Source of the DNA: Desulfuromonadales bacterium
Lineage (GTDB): Bacteria; Desulfobacterota; Desulfuromonadia; Desulfuromonadales; Syntrophotaleaceae
Assembly (NCBI GenBank): GCA_013619105.1
Contig: JABXKU010000004.1
Location: forward strand, 1-64,000
Reading direction: 5' to 3'
DNA: 64,000 bases
Below, in pieces: positions 23,022 to 60,342 of this stretch (the first letter of the stretch is position 1; the number at the start of each line of letters is the position of its first letter). Under the pieces are notes generated by a model. That model was not told the origin of the DNA and made no database searches. It saw only the letters and a program-made list of their open reading frames with translations. Both the position numbers and the translations under genes were made by a program.

Positions 23022-23211
23022 GTATGCCTTCTACTTCGGCCATTTTGCCCATGGCCAGCTCTTCGTTAATAAGCACCAGGTCACATTCTGGGCAGGCCGG
23101 CAGGTCGACGTGGAAGGTGCCGTTCAGGTAGAGAAATACCACCTCGCGCATTACAAGCGGCTTGTCGCAAGCATCGCAGCTCCATTGCTTGGCTTCTTCA
23201 AGGGATATCAT
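23008..23211 (-). CDS. Small CxxC…CxxC protein (DVU_1557-type)
   Basis: WSCDACDKPLV…PACPECDLVLI rubredoxin/zinc-ribbon-like knuckles. Confidence 0.75.
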   Translation of the reverse strand: MISLEEAKQWSCDACDKPLVMREVVFLYLNGTFHVDLPACPECDLVLINEELAMGKMAEVEGILEDK

Positions 23212-25526
23212 TATTTCACTCCGGTAACGTTCATACGATGGCTGTAGGCATTGAATATCTGAAAACCGCCCCCTTGGGGGGCATATTCGACCCAGAAGTT
23301 GACCTTGCCGAGTGCCCGGCTGGCCAGGCGCCGGCCATTGTTTTTGTCGATCAAACGTCGACCTTCGGCTTCCGACTGGTCGATTACTTGGCGGATGTCG
23401 TCGAGCAGAATCCGCCGTCGGTCAACGCTACGCTGGGTTTCGATGTCGAGATGAAGAATCATTTCCTGATAAGTTTCAGGCAGCTGGGGCTCTTCGCCCC
23501 ACAGGTGGCGGCCGAGAACTTCTTTGACCCGGGCCCGGTTCTCCCGACGCTCTGACCAGGATAGAAAGCCGCGCTGCCACGGGTCGCCGTTGTCGTTCTC
23601 GCCGAATAACAGCTCAATGAGATGGGCGGTCGGTTTACCTGCGGCGGCCATCTGGTCGCGGCACATGGCGCAGTAAGCCAGGTAGTCATGGTCGCTGGCC
23701 TTGGCCCGACAGCTGAGCTGTTCCTCGTTGAGGTCGGGGTTGGCGTTAAACACCAAGCCGCCGTAGCCGCAGCATTGGGCTGTTTCGCCACTGTAGTCCA
23801 ACTCCTCGATGGTTAAACCCAGTTCGGTGACAGCCTGCCGCACTCCCTGCTGAACCTTGGGATTATGGCGTGTGGCGCAGGGATCAATGACCGCCACCGT
23901 CTTGGCAGGCAGCGATGCGGCTGGCAGTGCTTTTTTGAGCTTTGGCATTTCTAGTATCTGCCATAGGGACTTGACCGGAATTTCCGGGAGGTGGTCCTGG
24001 AACAGTTGCTGACAGGAACTGCAGGCGCTGATGACTTGAGGACCGCCCATTTCCTGCCACTGCTGGCGCAATTCACCAATGATTTCGGTGAACAATTCCT
24101 GACGTCCGTCCCAGTAGGCCGGAGCGCCGCAGCAGGCTAACATCAGGCCGACGCCACCCTCGAGATTTTCCCGCAGGAAGCGATAGGATTCCATCACCTC
24201 CCCAGGGCTGCTGGAACAGAGCTGGCAGCTCGGGAAGTAGAGGTAGGCGCTTTCTTCGAAACCCGGAGCATGCCGGCAGAGGCTGAAGGCCTCGCTGCGG
24301 CTGAATTCAAGGTCCTGCAGGGCGAATTCGTGAGCCGAGTCCGGCATGAAATTCTCCCTCACCATGGTCTGGCGGGATTCGAGGCAGACGTCGCCCATGG
24401 ACAAGCCGTTGGGACAGACCTGCGCGCAGAGACCGCACAGGCTGCAGGAGTTGACGAATTTGTTGGCGGTGTGGCCGGCTCCGTGCAGGACTTTTTCGTT
24501 GTTGAATATCTGGCGGATGTAGGGCTTGGGATGTTTTTTGTATTTTTTCAGATAGTCGCAGTGCTTGACACATTCGAGGCATTCGCACTGCATGCAGCGG
24601 CTCGCTTCGGCCCGTACCGCTTCGTCGGTAAGCTGATCCGGCATGGCACGGTTGCTGGCCTCAATGCCTTCTAGATTGGTAGACAGTCGGGTCGGATAGG
24701 GGCCTTCGTTCTCCCGATTGTAATCGATGGTCGCTTTCTGCAAAAAGCGTTCAATGGACAGGGCACCTTTGCGCCCGGCATAGGCCTCCATGATCGGGGA
24801 GTAGCCCTGGCTCGGATCCGGTTCACCGCCGGCAAAGACACCTTGTTCGGCGGTGGCCGCAGTGAGCGCATCAATCACGATACGCCCGTTGGTCTCCTTT
24901 TGCAGGGGTAGGGACCAGCTTGAGGTGGCCTGGCCGTCGACGAATATGGCGTCAAAAGTTTCAACCAGTCCGGTAAAAGTGGCGGTATCGCATTGGGTGC
25001 CGAGATGCAAGGTGGCTCGCAGGGCATTCAGAACCGCCAGCTCGGCGTCGATTACTGCGGCCGGCAAGACGTTTTTTGGGTAACTGCGCAGGGCGCTGCC
25101 AAGCTGCTGGGCTTGTTCGTAGATGGTGACCTGCAGGCCCTTGTTGAGCATGTCCAGAGCAGCGGTGAGGCCGGCCATGCCGGTGCCGAGCACCGCAACC
25201 TTCCATCTCTTGCGCGGCAGAGGTTTGACCGGGTCCGGACCGCCATAGTGTTCCACGCAAAACCGCTCCAGGGCGCCGATGGCCAAAGCCTCGCCGGCCT
25301 CTTGGCGCCGGCAGGCAGCTTCGCAGGGGCGGTCGCAGATACGTCCCAGAATGCCCGGAAAGGGCATGGTTTTTTTTAAGGTCTGGTAAGCGGCCTTGTT
25401 GTCGCCGTCAGTGAGCTTTTGCATGAACTGGCGAACGTCGATATGCAACGGACATCCGCTGCTACAGGCGGGTGGCTCATCCTGGGTACACTTAGCCTCC
25501 CATGCGATGCGTTGTTCCTTTTCCAT
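23211..25526 (-). CDS. GltD-like pyridine nucleotide oxidoreductase fused to Fe-S and HdrB/CCG-type domains
   Basis: CxxxC Fe-S N-terminus, VAVLGTGMAGLTAALDM FAD site, CSLCGLCAQVCPNGL, two CCG motifs (ACCGAPAYW; QCCGYGGLVF). Confidence 0.85.
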   Translation of the reverse strand: MEKEQRIAWEAKCTQDEPPACSSGCPLHIDVRQFMQKLTDGDNKAAYQTLKKTMPFPGILGRICDRPCEAACRRQEAGEALAIGALERFCVEHYGGPDPVKPLPRKRWKVAVLGTGMAGLTAALDMLNKGLQVTIYEQAQQLGSALRSYPKNVLPAAVIDAELAVLNALRATLHLGTQCDTATFTGLVETFDAIFVDGQATSSWSLPLQKETNGRIVIDALTAATAEQGVFAGGEPDPSQGYSPIMEAYAGRKGALSIERFLQKATIDYNRENEGPYPTRLSTNLEGIEASNRAMPDQLTDEAVRAEASRCMQCECLECVKHCDYLKKYKKHPKPYIRQIFNNEKVLHGAGHTANKFVNSCSLCGLCAQVCPNGLSMGDVCLESRQTMVRENFMPDSAHEFALQDLEFSRSEAFSLCRHAPGFEESAYLYFPSCQLCSSSPGEVMESYRFLRENLEGGVGLMLACCGAPAYWDGRQELFTEIIGELRQQWQEMGGPQVISACSSCQQLFQDHLPEIPVKSLWQILEMPKLKKALPAASLPAKTVAVIDPCATRHNPKVQQGVRQAVTELGLTIEELDYSGETAQCCGYGGLVFNANPDLNEEQLSCRAKASDHDYLAYCAMCRDQMAAAGKPTAHLIELLFGENDNGDPWQRGFLSWSERRENRARVKEVLGRHLWGEEPQLPETYQEMILHLDIETQRSVDRRRILLDDIRQVIDQSEAEGRRLIDKNNGRRLASRALGKVNFWVEYAPQGGGFQIFNAYSHRMNVTGVK

Positions 25527-25709: not shown

Positions 25710-28562
25710 TTATACTTTTGCAGTTTCCATATCAGCCAGGGCGTTGATTACATCCTCGGGCTTCGGCGGAACCGAATCGACTGCGTCGGAGGTGTAACCA
25801 AGGGCAATGGCGTCGGCCACGTCGAAGGCTTTCTTCTTCGAGTTGAGGGCCGCCAGCACCTTCTCCGGATAGGCCGGAAGGTGACGGATACGGGCGCCGC
25901 AGGCGTCATCGATGGCGTTGATGATGGCGCAGTGGGGAGAGGTCAGTGGCAGCTCTCCAACCCCGCCGGCACCGGAGGCACCATGCACCCGAGGCTCGCA
26001 GACGTAGATGATTTCCAGGTCGTCGGGGATGTCGTTGCAGAACGGGAAGCCTGCGCCGATCATGTTGGAGTGCTTCTTGATGTGCTCGAAGTCCTCGGTT
26101 AGAGCCAAGCCGACACCCTGGGCCAAGCCACCGTAGATCTGGCCGTCAACTGCTAGCTGGTTGGTGATGGTGCCGACGTCGGCGACAATGGTCATTTTCA
26201 ACACGGTAGTCTTACCAGTGGTGATGTCGACCTCGACTTCGGACAGGAACAGACCGTACATGTAGATGCAGAAGGGGTCGCCCTTGCCGGTTTCGACGTC
26301 GCACTCGGTGCAGGGGGTGGTCCACTTGCCGAGATACTTGGTGTCGATACCATCGGCCTGCATCTCGTCAAAGGTGCGGTAGCTGCCGTCGGCCTTTTTC
26401 ATGCCCTCCATAAGCATTTCGCAGGCAACGCGGATAGCATTACCGGTGACGACGTTGTGGCGGCTGCCACCGGAAGGACCGGAGTTGGGAGTCATGCTGG
26501 AGTCGTTCATGCACAAATGGATCTGTTCCGGCCGCACACCCAGGGGTGTCAGGGTTTGGTGAGCATGGGTGAGGGTACCGATGTCAGCGCCCTGGCCGTG
26601 ATCCTGCCAGCTGTTGCCGATCATGAACTCGTTGTTGGGCAGCAGTTCGGCCCAGGCTTCCGAAGTGTCGGGACCGTCGAGGCCGCAGCCGTAGATACCG
26701 AGGGAGACGCCGACGCCGCGCTTCTTGGTGGCGGTGCTGTTCTGCTCGGCCAGTTGCTTGGCCCGCTCGTACTTGGGACGCAGGGCTTCGAACTGTTGCG
26801 GGAAGATGAATACTTCCGGGATCTGCTGGGTCGGGGTGGTGGAACCTTCGCGGTAGCAGTTCAGTTCGCGCAGATCAAAAGGATCCTTACCCATCTTCTG
26901 AGCCAACTCGTCGATCAGCGACTCGGAAGCGAAGAAGGACTGGGGCGAACCGTAGGAGCGGAATGGAGCGCCCCAGCAGTGGTTTGTGCAGACCGTACGG
27001 CCTTCACCGCGCATGTTGGGGATGTCGTAGCCAGAGAAGCAGTACTGCATGCCACGGATGGTCAGCAGGTCGCCGAACTCGGAGTAGGGGCCGTGGTCGA
27101 CGGACCAGTCGGTCTCGACGGCCAGGAACTTGCCGTTTTTGTCGGCAGCCAGGCGTGCCTTGAACCAGAAGGGCGAACGCTTGCCGGTGTAGAACTGCAG
27201 CTGGGCCCAGCTGTACTCGAGGTAGACGGGACGACCGGTGGCCATAGTGGCCGCGGCGAGCAGAGCTTCGTTACTGGGGCAGAACTTGTAGCCGAAGGAA
27301 GAACCGCAGGGGTTTTGTACAATGACCAGGTTTTCCGGGTCCAAGCCGAGGCCCGGGGCGATCATCGCGATCTGCAGCTGAATTGCGATGGATTTGGAGT
27401 TGACGACCACTTTGTCGTCTTCGTTGATGTACGCGAAGCCGATGTCGGACTCGAGGGGCATCTGTGGCTGGCGGCCGAGATAGTACTCGCCCTCGACCAC
27501 ATAGGCGGCTTTTTCCATGATCGGCGCGGTTTCTTCACCTTTTTTCAGGCCCTGGGTGAAGTAGACGTTGGGGGTGCCGGGATGGATTTCGATAGCGTCT
27601 TCGGCCATGGCGGCCGGAGCGTTCATGTAGTGGGGTAGCACTTCGAGGTCAAGCTTGACCGCTTTGGCGGCTGCATCGGCCTGGACCTGGGTATCGGCGC
27701 AGACGATGGCGATGGCGTCGCCGTACTGGAAGACCTTCTCATCGCACAGGATCGGACGATCCCAGCCGTCACCCTTGTTGGTTGGGAAGGTGATCAGGCC
27801 GGTGATGCGGTTCTTGCCCTGGATGTCCTTGGCGGTGACGATCTTGACCACGCCGGGCATCGTTTCGGCTTCGCTGGTGTCGACGCCTTTGATGTTGGCA
27901 TGGGCCACATCGGCGTAGACCAGAGACAGGAACAGGGTGTTTTCAGGCAGCTGCTCGCGCTTGTCCGCACCGAAATCCCACAGACCGCAGACCTTGGCCA
28001 CCGAGGTGGGGCGAGGGTAGCGGGATCCGTAAAGTTTGCCGTCGTTGTTGTCTTTGTAGTCGAGCATGGCTTCGTCCATGTCGCCACGCAGCACCTTGGC
28101 GGCATCCAGCGCCGCGTCGACGAGGGACATGTAACCGACGCAGCGGCAAGCGTTCTTGTACTTGGTGAACCAGTCGCGCACGTCCTGACGGGTGGGACTG
28201 GCGTTTACGTCGAGCAGCGCCTTGATGGAGACGACAAAGCCCGGAGTACAGAATCCGCACTGTAGGGCGCCGTGCTTGATGATGGCCTTCTGCACAGGGT
28301 GCAGGTTCTGTGGGGTGCCGAGGCCCTCGACGGTGGTGAGGGTCGACCAATTGTCGATTCGTTTCATGCGGGTGACGCAGGAACGCACCAGCTTGCCGTT
28401 CAGGATCACGTTGCAGGCTCCACAGGTGCCGGTGCCGCAACCGACTTTAGTGCCGGTCAGCTGAAACTGCTTGCGGATCACATCGGACAACAGTGCGTCC
28501 TGGTCAACGATAACAGCCCGTTCGATGCCGTTGACTTTGAGTATCTTCTTGACCAATCCCAT
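25710..28562 (-). CDS. Molybdenum-dependent aldehyde oxidoreductase (Mop / xanthine oxidase family; 2Fe-2S + Moco)
   Basis: CGTGTCGACNV plant-type 2Fe-2S, LQCGFCTPGFVVS second 2Fe-2S, Moco-binding domains; start reassigned to 28562 (AGGAGG before MGLVKKILKVNG). Confidence 0.93.
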   Translation of the reverse strand: MGLVKKILKVNGIERAVIVDQDALLSDVIRKQFQLTGTKVGCGTGTCGACNVILNGKLVRSCVTRMKRIDNWSTLTTVEGLGTPQNLHPVQKAIIKHGALQCGFCTPGFVVSIKALLDVNASPTRQDVRDWFTKYKNACRCVGYMSLVDAALDAAKVLRGDMDEAMLDYKDNNDGKLYGSRYPRPTSVAKVCGLWDFGADKREQLPENTLFLSLVYADVAHANIKGVDTSEAETMPGVVKIVTAKDIQGKNRITGLITFPTNKGDGWDRPILCDEKVFQYGDAIAIVCADTQVQADAAAKAVKLDLEVLPHYMNAPAAMAEDAIEIHPGTPNVYFTQGLKKGEETAPIMEKAAYVVEGEYYLGRQPQMPLESDIGFAYINEDDKVVVNSKSIAIQLQIAMIAPGLGLDPENLVIVQNPCGSSFGYKFCPSNEALLAAATMATGRPVYLEYSWAQLQFYTGKRSPFWFKARLAADKNGKFLAVETDWSVDHGPYSEFGDLLTIRGMQYCFSGYDIPNMRGEGRTVCTNHCWGAPFRSYGSPQSFFASESLIDELAQKMGKDPFDLRELNCYREGSTTPTQQIPEVFIFPQQFEALRPKYERAKQLAEQNSTATKKRGVGVSLGIYGCGLDGPDTSEAWAELLPNNEFMIGNSWQDHGQGADIGTLTHAHQTLTPLGVRPEQIHLCMNDSSMTPNSGPSGGSRHNVVTGNAIRVACEMLMEGMKKADGSYRTFDEMQADGIDTKYLGKWTTPCTECDVETGKGDPFCIYMYGLFLSEVEVDITTGKTTVLKMTIVADVGTITNQLAVDGQIYGGLAQGVGLALTEDFEHIKKHSNMIGAGFPFCNDIPDDLEIIYVCEPRVHGASGAGGVGELPLTSPHCAIINAIDDACGARIRHLPAYPEKVLAALNSKKKAFDVADAIALGYTSDAVDSVPPKPEDVINALADMETAKV

Positions 28563-28683: not shown

Positions 28684-29706
28684 CTATTTTCCGAAGCCGC
28701 AATCGGGATAACGGCACTCTTGGCAGCTGGCACAGATTCCGCCGTGGCCGAGAGCGATAATGTCCTCTCGCGTCACGCTTACGCCGGCCAGCAGGCGAGG
28801 GATAATAAGTTCAACGATGGTTGCCTTGTGATACATGGCGCAACCGGGCAGGCCGACCATCGGTACCCCGCGCAGTTCGGCCAGCATAAACATGGCTCCG
28901 GGATAGGTGGGGGCGCCGTAGCTGATGACCCGTGCGCCGCTAGCTCGAATTCCAGCCGGGGTCAGGTCGTCCGGGTCGACCGACATGCCACCGGTAAGGA
29001 CGATCATTTCGGCGCCGTCTCCGAGCAGTTTGTCGATAGCTTCGACGATGTCCGGCACTCGATCGGGCACCAAGTGCTGGCAGAACACCTCGCTGCCCCA
29101 GGCTTCGAATTTGGTTTTGACCAAGGGGCCGAAGCTATCGGGTATGCGACCGTAAAAGATTTCGTTACCGGTGGTGATCAAGCCGATTTGCAACGGCCGA
29201 AATGGTGTGAGGGTGATCAGGGGGGGGTGGTCTCGACAGATTTCTTCGAGGCGCTGCAGGTGATGTTCTTCGGTAAACAATGGAATAATACGGGTGCCGG
29301 CGACCACCTTGCCGGCCGTTACCGGTTGATTGCCATGCAGGGTAGCAATGGTAACGTCCGGCAGGCCATTGAGTTGTTTCAGTAGCCCAACGTCGATCTG
29401 CAGCAGCCCCTCAGTTTCAGCTTTGAGTTCGATTTTGCCTTGATTGGGCTCCGCAAAGCAGAGGTTCGGGCCACAGATGGCTTGGGCGATTCGCTGCGCG
29501 GCTTCATCCTCATGAATGTAGCCGTCGGGCAGGTTGAGTACATAGATACGTTCCTTGCCGATATCCTTAAGCCTTGGTACGTCGTCAAGGGTGATATGGT
29601 GCCCCTTCTTATAGGCGCGGCCCTTGAACTCTCCCGGCACGATGCGGGTGATATCGTGGTACAGCACTCTACCCACTGCTTGTTCGACATCTATGATTTC
29701 AACCAT
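28684..29706 (-). CDS. Molybdopterin-binding protein (MoeA/MogA-like) with C-terminal Cys cluster
   Basis: LITTGNEIFYGRIPDS, VLTGGMSVDPDDLTPAGIR (MoCF-type domain); C-terminal CASCQECRYPDC. Confidence 0.85.
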   Translation of the reverse strand: MVEIIDVEQAVGRVLYHDITRIVPGEFKGRAYKKGHHITLDDVPRLKDIGKERIYVLNLPDGYIHEDEAAQRIAQAICGPNLCFAEPNQGKIELKAETEGLLQIDVGLLKQLNGLPDVTIATLHGNQPVTAGKVVAGTRIIPLFTEEHHLQRLEEICRDHPPLITLTPFRPLQIGLITTGNEIFYGRIPDSFGPLVKTKFEAWGSEVFCQHLVPDRVPDIVEAIDKLLGDGAEMIVLTGGMSVDPDDLTPAGIRASGARVISYGAPTYPGAMFMLAELRGVPMVGLPGCAMYHKATIVELIIPRLLAGVSVTREDIIALGHGGICASCQECRYPDCGFGK

Positions 29707-29738: not shown

Positions 29739-29824
29739 AAAAAAACCCGCATCAATACCTGTTGCCAGGGATCAATGCGGGTTTCGTTGGGTCTGCGTGG
29801 GGCAGAGGACGAAATAGGCGCCTG
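29739..29824 (-). ncRNA. Repeated structured RNA element, copy 1
   Basis: Minus strand GGCGCCUAUUUCGUCCUCUGCCCCACGCAGACCCAACGAAACCCGC + terminator ending in U7; 33 nt before MoeA-like ATG. Confidence 0.75.
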
Positions 29825-29852
29825 ATATTAAATTGGATGCCGAGCGATCGTT

Positions 29853-30107
29853 CTACTTAAACTGCTCGATCTTTTCGATATAGTTGACGCCGCCTTCTTT
29901 GAAGGAAATAACCAGTTTGCCGGTGAAGCTTTCGTCGATGAACGCTGTCTTCTGCATGGTGGCGGCAACGATCCGTTTGCGGCTGGAGATCGAAGTCGCA
30001 GACAGGTCCGTTTTAGCGGAGCGGCGCCGCCCGGAGGAGGACTTCTCCTTTTGGCGACTTTCTTCCCTCAGTTGCGATTCCACTCTTAGAATTTCCGGAA
30101 CGGACAT
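29853..30107 (-). CDS. Small protein with YezD/DUF2292-like C-terminus
   Basis: C-terminal FTGKLVISFKEGGVNYIEKIEQFK shared with the protein at 32062-32256. Confidence 0.6.
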   Translation of the reverse strand: MSVPEILRVESQLREESRQKEKSSSGRRRSAKTDLSATSISSRKRIVAATMQKTAFIDESFTGKLVISFKEGGVNYIEKIEQFK

Positions 30108-30160
30108 GACTGGAGCCTCGCTATTGTACAGGGCATGTCAACGGGTAGTCGGACGTCGAA

Positions 30161-30244
30161 TAAAAAACCCGCACCTAGGCCTCAGAAAGGTTCGCTGCGG
30201 GTTTCGTTGGGTCTGCTCTCATGCAGAGGACGAAATGGGCGCCA
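30161..30244 (-). ncRNA. Repeated structured RNA element, copy 2
   Basis: Minus strand GGCGCCCAUUUCGUCCUCUGCAUGAGAGCAGACCCAACGAAACCCGC + terminator; 55 nt before ATG at 30107. Confidence 0.75.
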
Positions 30245-30351
30245 TATTTGAGGCAATTTTCTTGAGACGATTGTCTAGTGTGGTCGTTCTCAAATTAAAA
30301 CACCATTTGAAGGGTCTCTTTATAGCAAACCCATGACCAAATCTTCAAGAT

Positions 30352-30377
30352 AAAAATAACACCATCGGATGTTATTT
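30352..30377 (-). terminator. A/T-rich hairpin (tandem pair, 1)
   Basis: AAATAACA-N8-TGTTATTT(TT) on minus strand. Confidence 0.5.
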
Positions 30378-30400
30378 ACCGTAAACAACCAATAATACCT

Positions 30401-30424
30401 AAAAATAACCACCATTTGTTATTT
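30401..30424 (-). terminator. A/T-rich hairpin (tandem pair, 2), downstream of NifX-like gene
   Basis: AAATAAC-N8-GTTATTTTT on minus strand. Confidence 0.55.
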
Positions 30425-30438
30425 GGGGTTTTTGAAAC

Positions 30439-30927
30439 TCAATGGGTGGAGCAGGAATCGCTACTATGATCGGCGCATCCGTTGCCACCTTGAAGGACGC
30501 AGTCGCTTGGTTCTTCCTCCTCCTTCTCTTCGTGGTCATGGTCACAGCTGCCCTCTTCTTCATCGCCACAGCGACCCGCATCCTGGCTGTAGAAGGGTTC
30601 CATTTCATTTAGTTGTTCCTTTTTAAGCTCCTCAACAAGTTGTTGCAGGTTGCTACTTGTGGCTTCAAAGACCCGGTAACCGCTCATATTCATGGTCTGA
30701 TGGATGGCATCGCCGATGGCGTCGACCACGATGGCATCCAGGTTTCTGCCTTGGAGGGCCGCAAAGGGGTTGCAGCCTTTTGGTGGGTCCTGGGGGTCGC
30801 AGTTGTCGATAGTTTCAACTACGCCACTTTCGCTATCGACGATCACAAACAGAGGGGAAGAGGAAAAATGACTGAAAAGTTGACTGTTGATGCCGTTGTC
30901 TACGGCGACGGGAAAGCAGATTTTCAT
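30439..30927 (-). CDS. NifX/NifB-type Fe-Mo-cofactor-binding-like domain protein with acidic Cys/His-rich tail
   Basis: KICFPVAVDNGINSQLFSHFSSSPLFVIVD…; RBS AAGGAG before ATG at 30927; the ORF-track start at 31143 is not supported. Confidence 0.85.
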   Translation of the reverse strand: MKICFPVAVDNGINSQLFSHFSSSPLFVIVDSESGVVETIDNCDPQDPPKGCNPFAALQGRNLDAIVVDAIGDAIHQTMNMSGYRVFEATSSNLQQLVEELKKEQLNEMEPFYSQDAGRCGDEEEGSCDHDHEEKEEEEPSDCVLQGGNGCADHSSDSCSTH

Positions 30928-31024
30928 TGGGTATTCTCCTTGTCGTATTGGGCTTAGAAGGGCGGTTTTAGGAACAGAACCGGGCCATACTGGCCAGGGA
31001 TGGGGTATTCTGGTGGGGCACGTT

Positions 31025-31930
31025 TCAGCTGCGCTGGAGCAGGGCTTGGCCACCTTGCAGATAGAGGACCTGCAAGTCATGGTTGCCGCAATATTCGTCC
31101 ACCGCCTGGCGAACCCCGGGGCAGGAAGGGAATCCGTAATCATCGAAAATCATCACCCCGCCAGGACTCAGCCGGGGGTAAAAAAACTGACAACAGGCCA
31201 AGGCTGAAGCGTAGATATCGACATCGACATGCACCAGTGAAAAAACTTTATAGGACCAGTGCTCAGGTAGGGTTTCGGGAAATAACCCTGGGTGGAGTTG
31301 CACATTTTTATATTCGCCCAGCAGGGCTGAGACGGCTTTGACGGAGGTGTCAGCAAAGTCCCCCGAGCGGTGCATGTCGATAGCGGGATCGCTGTCCGGC
31401 ATGCCGCAAAAGGTGTCAAAGAGATGCAGTTGCTGGATGCTGCCCTGCAGGGCCTCTGCCATGAGCAGTGCAGTGCCTCCCCGGTAGACCCCTATTTCAG
31501 CTAAGTCGCCATTGACCTTCCGTGCTTGGCGGCTGAGTTGATAGAGGGGAGCTAGGCGGTCTTCGCTCACCAGGGTGTGTCTTCGGACCTTGTCCCGTAG
31601 AGGGGCAAAGTCTGGCTCAAGATCGCTGTAGTGTAGTGGCCGCGGGGTCGCATCGTAAAAGTGTTGGTCTTCTTCAAGACCTAACCTTTCCAGCAGCTTA
31701 CGGACCTCCTGGTAGTGGCCACCCACCGCTACCGCGACGGTCGGTGGTCCGTCGTCCAGCGATAGCAGGTAGCCGGGTGGGTATACCGGCAGGCCTTCCA
31801 CGATCAGGCCCTGCTTGGTTGGATTACTATCGACGAAGCAGAGAACGTCTGCCGAATCAGGGTTTTTTTTTAACAGCCGCATCAGGGCGATCCCCTGGCA
31901 GCCAGCACCGTAAATGATAAAGAGTTTCAT
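31025..31930 (-). CDS. TylF/MycF-type methyltransferase with N-terminal Rossmann-like domain
   Basis: GDLAEIGVYRGGTALLMAEAL, HVDVDIYASALACCQFFYPRLSPGGVMIFDDYG; N-terminal FIIYGAGCQGIALMRLL; start moved to MKLF at 31930. Confidence 0.75.
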   Translation of the reverse strand: MKLFIIYGAGCQGIALMRLLKKNPDSADVLCFVDSNPTKQGLIVEGLPVYPPGYLLSLDDGPPTVAVAVGGHYQEVRKLLERLGLEEDQHFYDATPRPLHYSDLEPDFAPLRDKVRRHTLVSEDRLAPLYQLSRQARKVNGDLAEIGVYRGGTALLMAEALQGSIQQLHLFDTFCGMPDSDPAIDMHRSGDFADTSVKAVSALLGEYKNVQLHPGLFPETLPEHWSYKVFSLVHVDVDIYASALACCQFFYPRLSPGGVMIFDDYGFPSCPGVRQAVDEYCGNHDLQVLYLQGGQALLQRS

Positions 31931-31962
31931 GGGCATTTCGTAGTTAAGGTGAGTTGTAAAAC

Positions 31963-32058
31963 GAAAAAAACCCACTCCAGTGCCAGGCAGACCATAGGTC
32001 CGGCAGTATGGAGCGGGTTTCGTTGGGTCTGCCTTGGGCAGAGGACGAAATAGGCGCT
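31963..32058 (-). ncRNA. Repeated structured RNA element, copy 3
   Basis: Minus strand AGCGCCUAUUUCGUCCUCUGCCCAAGGCAGACCCAACGAAACCCGC + terminator with U7; 33 nt before ATG at 31930. Confidence 0.75.
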
Positions 32059-32061
32059 GAG

Positions 32062-32256
32062 TTATTTGAATGTTTCGGTTTTTTCGACGAAGCTGATGCC
32101 GCCATCCTTGAAGGAGATGACCAGCTTGCCGGTAAAGCGTTCAGGGACAATATGCAGTTCCTGAAAAGTATCGCACAGCTGCTTTTTCCAGACGGAGTTT
32201 TTGGCTTTAATGTCGGTTACGACCTGCCTTCTGACCTCTCTGTCCTTGTTTGCCAT
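32062..32256 (-). CDS. Small protein with YezD/DUF2292-like C-terminus
   Basis: C-terminal FTGKLVISFKDGGISFVEKTETFK, 17/24 identical by eye to the 29853-30107 product. Confidence 0.65.
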   Translation of the reverse strand: MANKDREVRRQVVTDIKAKNSVWKKQLCDTFQELHIVPERFTGKLVISFKDGGISFVEKTETFK

Positions 32257-58119: not shown

Positions 58120-58312
58120 ATGGGCTTCGCAGCCCGCTGACATAAAAGTCCACTCCGATTTAAGGCCGGCTAAGGCAATAGCTAAGCTACCTTGAACGAT
58201 GGGTGTCCCTGGAAACGGTGGCGCCTCCCGCATTTGGAAAGGAGTCGACCTGCGAACGCGTATTCCAAGGTATATGGTGCGCTGGCGGGGTGACCCGTCA
58301 GCGCATTTTTTT
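58120..58312 (+). ncRNA. Structured leader / candidate riboswitch with intrinsic terminator
   Basis: TACCTTGAA (58188) pairs with TTCCAAGGTA (58263); internal GGTGTC/GGCGCC hairpin with GAAA loop; terminator TGCGCTGGCGGG/CCCGTCAGCGCA + T7 at 58278-58312. Confidence 0.65.
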
Positions 58313-58371: not shown

Positions 58372-60342
58372 ATGAACACAAGATTATTTACACCGCTGGT
58401 CTGGGTGTGCTTGTTGGCTTTGCTGCCGGCAATGCCAAGTTTTGCAGCTGACAGCGAAGTATTTTCCCTCGGCGAGGTTATCGTTACCGGTGAACAGCAG
58501 GTGGTCAATCTGGCTACTACCGTGACCGAGGTGACTGCCGAGGATATCGAGCAGCGCGGTGCGCGAAATGTCGCTGAGGCCTTGGAGCAACTGCCCGGTG
58601 TTGATGTGCAGAAGGGCGGCAAAGGTCAGAGCTATGTCAGTATTCGTGGTTTTGAGCAGGGCGATCTGAAAATATTGATCGACGGCGTGCCGGTCTACGA
58701 GCAGTATTTTCGTAGTATCGACCTTGACCAGCTTCCGGTCGATTCCATTGCCAAGATCACCGTGACCAAGGGAGCTTCTTCGGTACTGTACGGGGCCAAC
58801 ACCATGGGTGGGGTCATCAATATTATCACCAAAAAAGCCGGCTCCAAGCCGAGCGCCACGGTGTCCGGTGCCTGGGGGGATTACGACACCCAACACTACG
58901 GCGTCAGTTTCAGCGCGCCCGCCGGCCCCTTCAATTACCGGCTGGGATACACCTATCGCCATTCCAATGGCTGGCGCCTGTCCAGCGACTACGATGAGGA
59001 CCACTGGGCGGCACAGTACAGTTCCTATACCCAGGATGACGGTGGCGCAATGGATGACACCGGTTATCTTATGCACAACTTTAATGCCAAGTTTGGTTTC
59101 GAGCCCTCAGACAATACTAAGCTGTACCTGACTCTCGACGTGAACGACAACGAAAAGGGTATCCCCTCCAGAAACTGGTATTTCGAAGACTGGAAGCAAT
59201 GGCAGGTGAGTCTGGTCGGGGAGCAGCGCATTAACGATGTTCTGCGGGTCAAGGCCCGGGCCTATTATGTCGACCACGAGGATACCCTGCGTGATACCGA
59301 CTGGACCGATCGGTCCTGGTTCTATAAGTCCGCTTACGATAACTATACCATTGGCGGCGAAGCCCAGGCGTTTATGGATTTCAGCGACTTAAGTTTCCTG
59401 AAGGTCGGGTTCAGCTTCTTGCGGGATAATTGTCAGCAAGAAGAAATGGAGGCTCCCGGAGCTTCCTGGGAAGATACCGGCGAGTACGAATCTGACACCT
59501 ACTCGCTCGGTGTGGAAGACGAGATCAAGGTCAATGACTGGTTGGCCTTCACCGTCGGCGCTAGCTACGATTACTTTGACCCTCGTGAGTCAGATGATCA
59601 GCCAGTGCCCGATAGCATCGGTTCCTTCAACCCCCAGGCCGGGGTGGTCGTAACCCTGTCGGACAGCACCTTGCTGCACGGATCCGTCGGTAAAAAGATT
59701 CGCTTCCCCCATCTGAAAGAGTTGTACAGTGAGGCAACGGGTGGCAACCCCGACCTTGATCCCCAGGAGACCATCGCCTATGAAGTCGGTGTGACCCAGC
59801 AATTCTCGGATGCCGTCAACGGTTCGGTAGCCATTTTCTACAACGATATCAAGGACCTGATCGTGAAGGGCGAAGTCGCCGGTTACGATGACGATATTTA
59901 TTACAATGTAGGTAACGCCAACATCTTCGGTGTCGAAGCCACTCTTGGGGCCGATATCACCGACCGTTTCTGGGTCGGTATCAACTATACCTACCTCAAT
60001 ACCGAAGACGAAGAGACGAATAAAGAACTGGAAGAGCGGCCCCGCCATCGGGCTAACCTCGACGCCCGCTATCGGTTCCCCTTCGGTCTCTCGATTTCGA
60101 GTCAACTCTCGATTACCGACCGCCAGTTTTATTCTAAGGAAGTCGCTCGCAGAAACTACGAGTGGACCGAGAATGATGATTTTGTGTTGCTGAATGCACG
60201 GGTTGAGCAGAGTCTTGAAGCCTGGAAAATTACTGGCAAAGCTTTCCTCGAGGTGAACAACATCACCGACCGTGACTACACCGAAGGCGGTGACCTGATG
60301 CCCGGCCGTAACTTCATGGCTGGTTTGAACTTCACTTATTAA
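58372..60342 (+). CDS. TonB-dependent receptor
   Basis: Signal peptide; plug domain (EVIVTGEQQ…GVPVYEQYF…GASSVLYGANTMGGVINIITKK); C-terminal aromatic residue. Confidence 0.94.
   Translation: MNTRLFTPLVWVCLLALLPAMPSFAADSEVFSLGEVIVTGEQQVVNLATTVTEVTAEDIEQRGARNVAEALEQLPGVDVQKGGKGQSYVSIRGFEQGDLKILIDGVPVYEQYFRSIDLDQLPVDSIAKITVTKGASSVLYGANTMGGVINIITKKAGSKPSATVSGAWGDYDTQHYGVSFSAPAGPFNYRLGYTYRHSNGWRLSSDYDEDHWAAQYSSYTQDDGGAMDDTGYLMHNFNAKFGFEPSDNTKLYLTLDVNDNEKGIPSRNWYFEDWKQWQVSLVGEQRINDVLRVKARAYYVDHEDTLRDTDWTDRSWFYKSAYDNYTIGGEAQAFMDFSDLSFLKVGFSFLRDNCQQEEMEAPGASWEDTGEYESDTYSLGVEDEIKVNDWLAFTVGASYDYFDPRESDDQPVPDSIGSFNPQAGVVVTLSDSTLLHGSVGKKIRFPHLKELYSEATGGNPDLDPQETIAYEVGVTQQFSDAVNGSVAIFYNDIKDLIVKGEVAGYDDDIYYNVGNANIFGVEATLGADITDRFWVGINYTYLNTEDEETNKELEERPRHRANLDARYRFPFGLSISSQLSITDRQFYSKEVARRNYEWTENDDFVLLNARVEQSLEAWKITGKAFLEVNNITDRDYTEGGDLMPGRNFMAGLNFTY

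Follow-up and report, generated by a model that had tools for sequence, protein, structure and literature searches.

Three copies of the Moco-II motif (RF01713) at a molybdenum aldehyde oxidoreductase locus, with a candidate closing helix that overlaps the terminator

The window, a stretch of 64,000 nucleotides from a Desulfuromonadales bacterium, carries three structured RNA elements on its minus strand that are almost certainly members of the Rfam family RF01713 (Moco-II). In a cmscan of Rfam 15, all three match RF01713 over model positions 1–46 of 46, with 55.5 bits for copy 1 (core at 29,777–29,821), 54.9 bits for copy 2 (30,197–30,242) and 60.1 bits for copy 3 (32,013–32,057), as compared with a gathering score of 35 bits. 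The E values of 4.5e-7 to 2.8e-8 against the whole of Rfam are far from chance, and a search of the window's own genome with RF01713 returned exactly these three copies. The model R1 gives 67.8 bits to copy 1, which is among its training sequences. The first-pass annotation of this DNA had described three minus-strand repeats at these positions, each with a terminator, and the sequence and the Rfam matches bear this out; its proposal that they represent an unclassified riboswitch class is refuted by the same matches. The model of the Moco riboswitch, RF01055, has no match at the trio in the cmscan and one elsewhere in the window (58,141–58,260, plus strand), upstream of a TonB-dependent receptor (58,372–60,342, plus strand). 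In the table of Weinberg et al. (2010; PMC2864571), Moco-II is entered for Proteobacteria and graded "probably" an RNA, "certainly" cis-regulatory and "ambiguous" (?) as a riboswitch. In the literature searched, this table line is the only place where Moco-II appears by name, and two papers contain the accession RF01713; no ligand is assigned to it in any paper found, and it is still an orphan motif. The best overall explanation of the trio, to which we give guarded preference, is that the elements may be ON switches of the Mo/W pathway that act by antitermination at a Mo aldehyde oxidoreductase locus.

The three copies share a core of 45–46 nucleotides, GCGC(C)(U/C)AUUUCGUCCUCUGC-loop-GCAGACCCAACGAAACCCGC, which is followed without a gap by a terminator hairpin and a U tract. 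The intrinsic terminators, all on the minus strand, lie at 29,739–29,784 in copy 1 (AAACCCGC...GCGGGUUUUUUU), 30,162–30,204 in copy 2 and 31,964–32,020 in copy 3 (CCCGCUCCA...UGGAGUGGGUUUUUUU), and the U tracts end near 29,739, 30,162 and 31,964, respectively. The helices of copy 1 are P0 (GCG/CGC), P1 (UUCG/CGAA) and P2 (UCUGC/GCAGA), and the 5′ arm of its terminator has CGC in common with P0. The locus is co-directional, on the minus strand. It runs from a gene for a 64-residue protein (32,062–32,256), whose stop codon directly adjoins the core of copy 3, through copy 3, a TylF-type methyltransferase domain protein (31,025–31,930; PF05711) and a dinitrogenase iron-molybdenum cofactor (FeMo-co) domain protein (30,439–30,927; PF02579) to copy 2, a gene for an 84-residue protein (29,853–30,107) and copy 1. 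Downstream of copy 1 are a MoeA-like protein with a molybdopterin-binding domain (28,684–29,706; PF00994, Pfam 1.5e-22), a molybdopterin-dependent aldehyde oxidoreductase (25,710–28,562; NF045668, 1555.7 bits) and, in the same cluster, an FeS/NAD pyridine nucleotide-disulfide oxidoreductase/dicluster-binding protein (23,211–25,526; NF045663, 993.7 bits). The start codon of the aldehyde oxidoreductase may be further upstream, the reading frame being open to 28,733. The labels "MoeA-like" and "TylF-like" given previously agree with the Pfam matches to MoCF_biosynth (PF00994) and PF05711, and the label "YezD-like", given to the 84-residue protein, is recognized by neither Pfam nor NCBIfam. Homologues of this protein occupy the same place in relatives and also have no Pfam or NCBIfam match; it looks related to the 64-residue protein, the two having FTGKLVISFK in common. 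A scan of 28.5–33.2 kb for sigma-70-type promoters found none.

RF01713 matches are present in 8 of 58 relatives, all within the window's own family, and, across the class Desulfuromonadia, in 20 of the 277 genomes searched. A phylum-wide sample of 396 genomes, searched with few candidates scored per genome, contained no Moco-II beyond the window's own genome. An exact-pattern scan of 85,462 GTDB species returned Desulfuromonas, Pelobacter and Geobacter-type records together with two matches outside the class that appear to be due to chance, one in an Acidobacteriaceae MAG (L031) and one in a Deltaproteobacteria MAG (L040). Both were set aside: neither resembles any Rfam family at an E value of 1 or less, RF01713 searches of the two genomes gave no match, and the L040 match, which reaches only 20 bits with R1, appears to sit inside a coding sequence. 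The sample used below consists of 78 Moco-II copies with their flanks from the 20 Desulfuromonadia genomes, four of them under the gathering score (34.5, 34.2, 33.5 and 30.9 bits). The alignment comprises 76 of these copies, with the low-scoring L140 and L109 (35 bits) left out, and a model built from the 76 found one more copy outside its training set (L161, 42 bits). In 2010 the motif reportedly had about eight representatives.

The trio agrees with Moco-II as published (RF01713; PMC2864571) in its full-length matches, in P1 and P2 and in the consensus. The consensus line of RF01713 pairs only P1 (UCGU/ACGA) and P2, with GCG and CCCGC unpaired; what is added here to the Rfam entry is the 3-bp closing helix P0 (GCG/CGC), its overlap with the terminator and the assembly of 78–79 copies. 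Among the 76 aligned copies, 98.8% of the pairs in P0, P1 and P2 are standard as compared with 94.6% in shuffles, and 50 cells have changes on both sides as compared with 12.1 in shuffles; none of 500 shuffles reaches the observed value on any of five measures. Covariation across homologues, which the first-pass annotation had named as a check on the fold, is strong in P2: each of its five pairs is altered on both strands in some copies, as in the exchange of U-A for C-G seen in 13 and 21 copies. P1 is almost invariant, so that covariation speaks neither for nor against it. The helix UUUCGU/ACGAAA put forward earlier stands in its 4-bp core, UUCG/CGAA, but its outermost and innermost pairs fail in 19 and 16 of the 76 copies. 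P0 can form in every one of the 76 aligned copies, among which there are one double change from G-C to A-U and two G-U pairs, and in 77 of 78 overall (L140 has GCG/CGC and L109 is without the 5′ GCG). With 3 bp and a single double change, the predicted P0, like P1, falls short of proof by covariation. In the 78 copies a sharply conserved block extends from the first to the last base of P0. It is followed by an A in 67 of 78, and beyond this point conservation falls although the terminator stem goes on. The natural reading of this pattern is that CCCGC would be kept for the sake of the core and not for that of the terminator.

The conserved core is coupled to a terminator in most copies. For the 49 nt from AACCCGC onward, the mean folding z-score against shuffles is −5.3, and z is below −2 in 69 of the 78 copies. 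A terminator-like hairpin that uses CCCGC and has a U tract, usually 28–42 nt past the core, was called in 67 of 78 by a detector with at least one false short hairpin among its calls (G005:C85) and a few omissions where the U tract is interrupted, the shuffle-based z-scores being the safer figure; about nine copies are without a clear terminator of their own. The 3′ strand of P0 lies within CCCGC, the 5′ arm of the terminator, and comparison of the copies shows that the predicted closed P0 and the complete terminator are mutually exclusive. Both folds were computed for the window copies. In the minimum-energy folds the terminator is present and P2 is kept, as is most of P1 in copies 1 and 3, and forcing P0, P1 and P2 together costs 15.8, 7.7 and 11.0 kcal/mol in copies 1, 2 and 3, respectively. 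With the terminator fold favored by 8–16 kcal/mol, the predicted ligand-free state is termination. The overlap of helix and terminator described previously is thus switch-like in its geometry, but the conflict arises mainly through GCG/CGC, a pairing that was not listed then; P2 as a whole and the greater part of P1 can form alongside the terminator.

The genes downstream are coherent: 75 of the 78 copies precede Mo/W-related operons and not unrelated genes, which is the outcome that the earlier view of a structured, terminator-coupled cis-regulatory RNA near Mo genes called for, and that view is upheld by recurrence in 20 genomes and by covariation. As these downstream proteins were also the basis for defining the clusters, the figure of 75 of 78 rests on independent identification of domains, by Pfam and NCBIfam with a tblastn pass, our own ORF caller being crude. 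A MoeA-like/aldehyde oxidoreductase locus follows 41 of the 78 copies, counting those in which the leading genes encode TylF-like, FeMo-co domain, DsrC, NarI-like, nitroreductase or small proteins. The aldehyde oxidoreductase alone follows five, formate dehydrogenase with or without NuoE/NuoF-like subunits follows 10, and a NifS-like gene follows four, in one case with XdhC. Uptake-like operons (Peripla_BP_2, FecCD, ABC ATPase, FmdE, TonB receptor, DUF364/DUF4213 and ModA-like genes) follow 15; the presence of FmdE and ModA, together with the RNA context, leads us to infer that these probably carry molybdate or tungstate. Acetate kinase (two copies) and URO-D (one copy) make up the remaining three. 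In the window's family (14 genomes including its own), a complete close orthologue of the MoeA-like gene is present in the eight genomes that have the element and in no others, and the element is upstream of it; a ninth has a MoeA-like gene cut at a contig end, with the upstream region outside view, and five have neither gene nor element (hypergeometric p 0.003, uncorrected for kinship). In the window the TonB receptor is behind RF01055, and Moco-II copies precede a TonB receptor operon in relatives.

These results bear on the simplest interpretation, namely that the elements are plain intrinsic terminators that were spread by duplication and end upstream transcripts, with no sensing. Their location between co-directional genes, with copy 3 adjoining a stop codon, is compatible with such a role. 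Nevertheless, it is highly improbable and was rejected as a candidate: the 45-nt core is conserved far past the needs of a terminator and conservation drops after CCCGC while the stem continues, P2 covaries, the copies lie ahead of Mo/W-related genes as counted above, and a pattern search finds this type of terminator nowhere else in the 3.3-Mb genome. In that search, which served as the genome-wide terminator control, CCCGC-N(14–34)-GCGGGTTTT has two matches, both in these elements, and the third copy has GUGGGU instead. A generic terminator scan limited to loops of 3–8 nt and unbroken stems does not register the three terminators of the window.

We consider it very likely that the Moco-II trio is a cis-acting transcription attenuator and, on the features of the sequences, probable that Moco-II acts as a direct small-molecule riboswitch; an ON polarity is modestly favored by the computed folds. 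In the proposed mechanism, the more stable terminator would win when no ligand is bound, and RNA polymerase would halt ahead of the Mo-enzyme genes. A ligand of the Mo/W cofactor pathway (Moco, a metal-free pterin precursor or an oxyanion) would bind the internal loops, and the ligand-bound core would hold P0, so that the terminator could not nucleate and read-through would follow. The three copies would gate successive genes of one Mo aldehyde oxidoreductase locus. The closing helix P0 explains how Moco-II could control the terminator; the CGC that P0 shares with the terminator arm, together with the 69 of 78 copies with z below −2, is the geometry that points to an ON switch by antitermination. 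Ligand binding, however, need not exclude the terminator because P1 and P2 are compatible with it. Both helices are largely formed in the terminator-containing minimum-energy folds, so that the pocket, if it lies in the P1/P2 loops, can exist in both states. A ligand on P1/P2 might then favor the terminator instead, as an OFF switch, with ligand-free expression arising from kinetic trapping in the P0-closed core, where P0 has a pairing probability of ∼0.75 when the core is isolated; the 15 copies ahead of Mo-uptake-like genes, which Moco would be expected to shut off, agree with this polarity. We regard it as unlikely, as the sequences show no separate antiterminator, the regulon consists mostly of Mo-enzyme genes and the terminator already wins in the ligand-free state, leaving little to repress. 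Within the ON switch that we prefer, the same architecture ahead of enzyme and uptake genes is awkward for simple activation by Moco, and ∼45 nt is small for a Moco-binding aptamer. It is a speculation that a metal-free pterin precursor, signaling that pterin is ready and metal is needed, would fit both types of genes as the ligand.

RF01055 is found in 19 of the 20 Moco-II genomes, and at nine Geobacter-group loci it lies 42–130 nt upstream of Moco-II on the same strand, in the order RF01055 then Moco-II in all nine. These are G546:C99, G547:C104, G547:C76 (L161), G584:C4, G584:C8, G584:C13, G588:C53, G589:C211 and G590:C110, which carry the L labels L108, L111, L119, L123, L124, L129, L133, L139 and L161. 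Most have a separate terminator for each RNA; G584:C13 is a triple (RF01055, Moco-II, RF01055), and a tenth locus, L117, has an apparently decayed 5′ part of RF01055 followed by an intact Moco-II. Eight of the nine precede uptake-like operons, with a ModA-like gene in two of these (G547:C104, by Pfam SBP_bac_11, and L161, by sequence reading), and G546:C99 precedes a MoeA-like gene. When the RF01055 platforms of the tandems were read for the sign of regulation, partial overlap was seen. Tandem Moco and Wco riboswitches have been reviewed, with Moco-II absent from the review (PMC9481103), and a mixed RF01055/Moco-II tandem was not found described in the papers searched. The pair looks like a two-aptamer relay, and the tandems are the strongest hint that Moco-II may read a signal of the same pathway as RF01055. 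We suggest tentatively that Moco-II could be a second class of aptamer for the Mo/W cofactor pathway, much smaller than RF01055 and structurally unrelated to it, and that ahead of Geobacter-group Mo-uptake operons the two could form a two-input or band-pass gate, one RNA reading Moco and the other, in a different sense, reading either Moco as well or its metal-free precursor or tungsten form.

The tandems also bear on protein-mediated attenuation, in which a Mo- or pterin-responsive RNA-binding protein, perhaps encoded in the cluster, would bind the core and control the terminator. A compact hairpin with internal-loop bases that are nearly invariant among copies would suit such a protein, and small conserved proteins of no known family are encoded between the copies at the locus. 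The YezD-like gene, however, is confined to the MoeA-like locus in the window's family and is not found beside the Geobacter-group elements, so that it is no general partner, and the placement of Moco-II in series with an established riboswitch class points to a small molecule of a related kind as the input. We find this alternative rather improbable and continue to favor direct ligand binding.

Several further features of the serial arrangements were observed. In the window's family the uptake operon often has two Moco-II copies in series, of which the second is usually degenerate. Such direct tandems are at L101 9532–9650, L104 6295–6413, L106 1139–1257, L138 1527–1632 and L100 from 6326; the first copy of each has no U tract, and its CGCA in some cases pairs with the UGCG that opens the next copy, which could couple both folds. 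In L119, L123, L124, L129, L139 and L161, the RF01055 terminator loop (GUGUUUA/GUGUUUG) is complementary to UAAACAC/CAGACAC just 3′ of its P1, with an apparent compensatory change between loci, and may form a terminator-loop pseudoknot or an antiterminator. A 61-bit Moco-II core at L101 6815–6857 (plus strand) is without a terminator; the nearest called downstream genes run the opposite way, and by tblastn a MolA-like sequence starts ∼450 nt downstream on the same strand. The Geobacter-type MAG G584 (3.7 Mb) contains 13 RF01055 and eight Moco-II copies.

The trio thus represents new copies of a known, unsolved motif, and what is worth following is the overlap of P0 with the terminator and the RF01055/Moco-II tandems. 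The larger alignment, the closing helix, the coherent Mo/W regulon and the adjacency to RF01055 make the ligand of Moco-II, a motif unproven since 2010, directly testable. Two unrelated RNAs in series on one operon offer a genetic way to separate the sensing of Moco, of the tungsten cofactor and of a precursor, a route that is valuable given the instability of Moco and the difficulty of working with it in binding assays. In terminator-controlling ON riboswitches such as adenine pbuE, the closing strand of the aptamer doubles as the terminator 5′ arm. Moco-II resembles these in the reuse of its closing strand in the terminator, but its closing helix has only 3 bp and it is a candidate switch. 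Two-class tandem riboswitches such as SAM-II/SAM-V (PMC9481103) resemble the Geobacter-group tandems in having two RNA families in series ahead of one operon, whereas the window itself is without an RF01055/Moco-II tandem. The Moco riboswitch RF01055 (Regulski et al., 2008; PMC2408646) is like Moco-II in its regulon of Mo transport, Moco biosynthesis and Mo enzymes and in being coupled to a terminator in some cases, but it comprises ∼120 nt and differs in sequence and structure.
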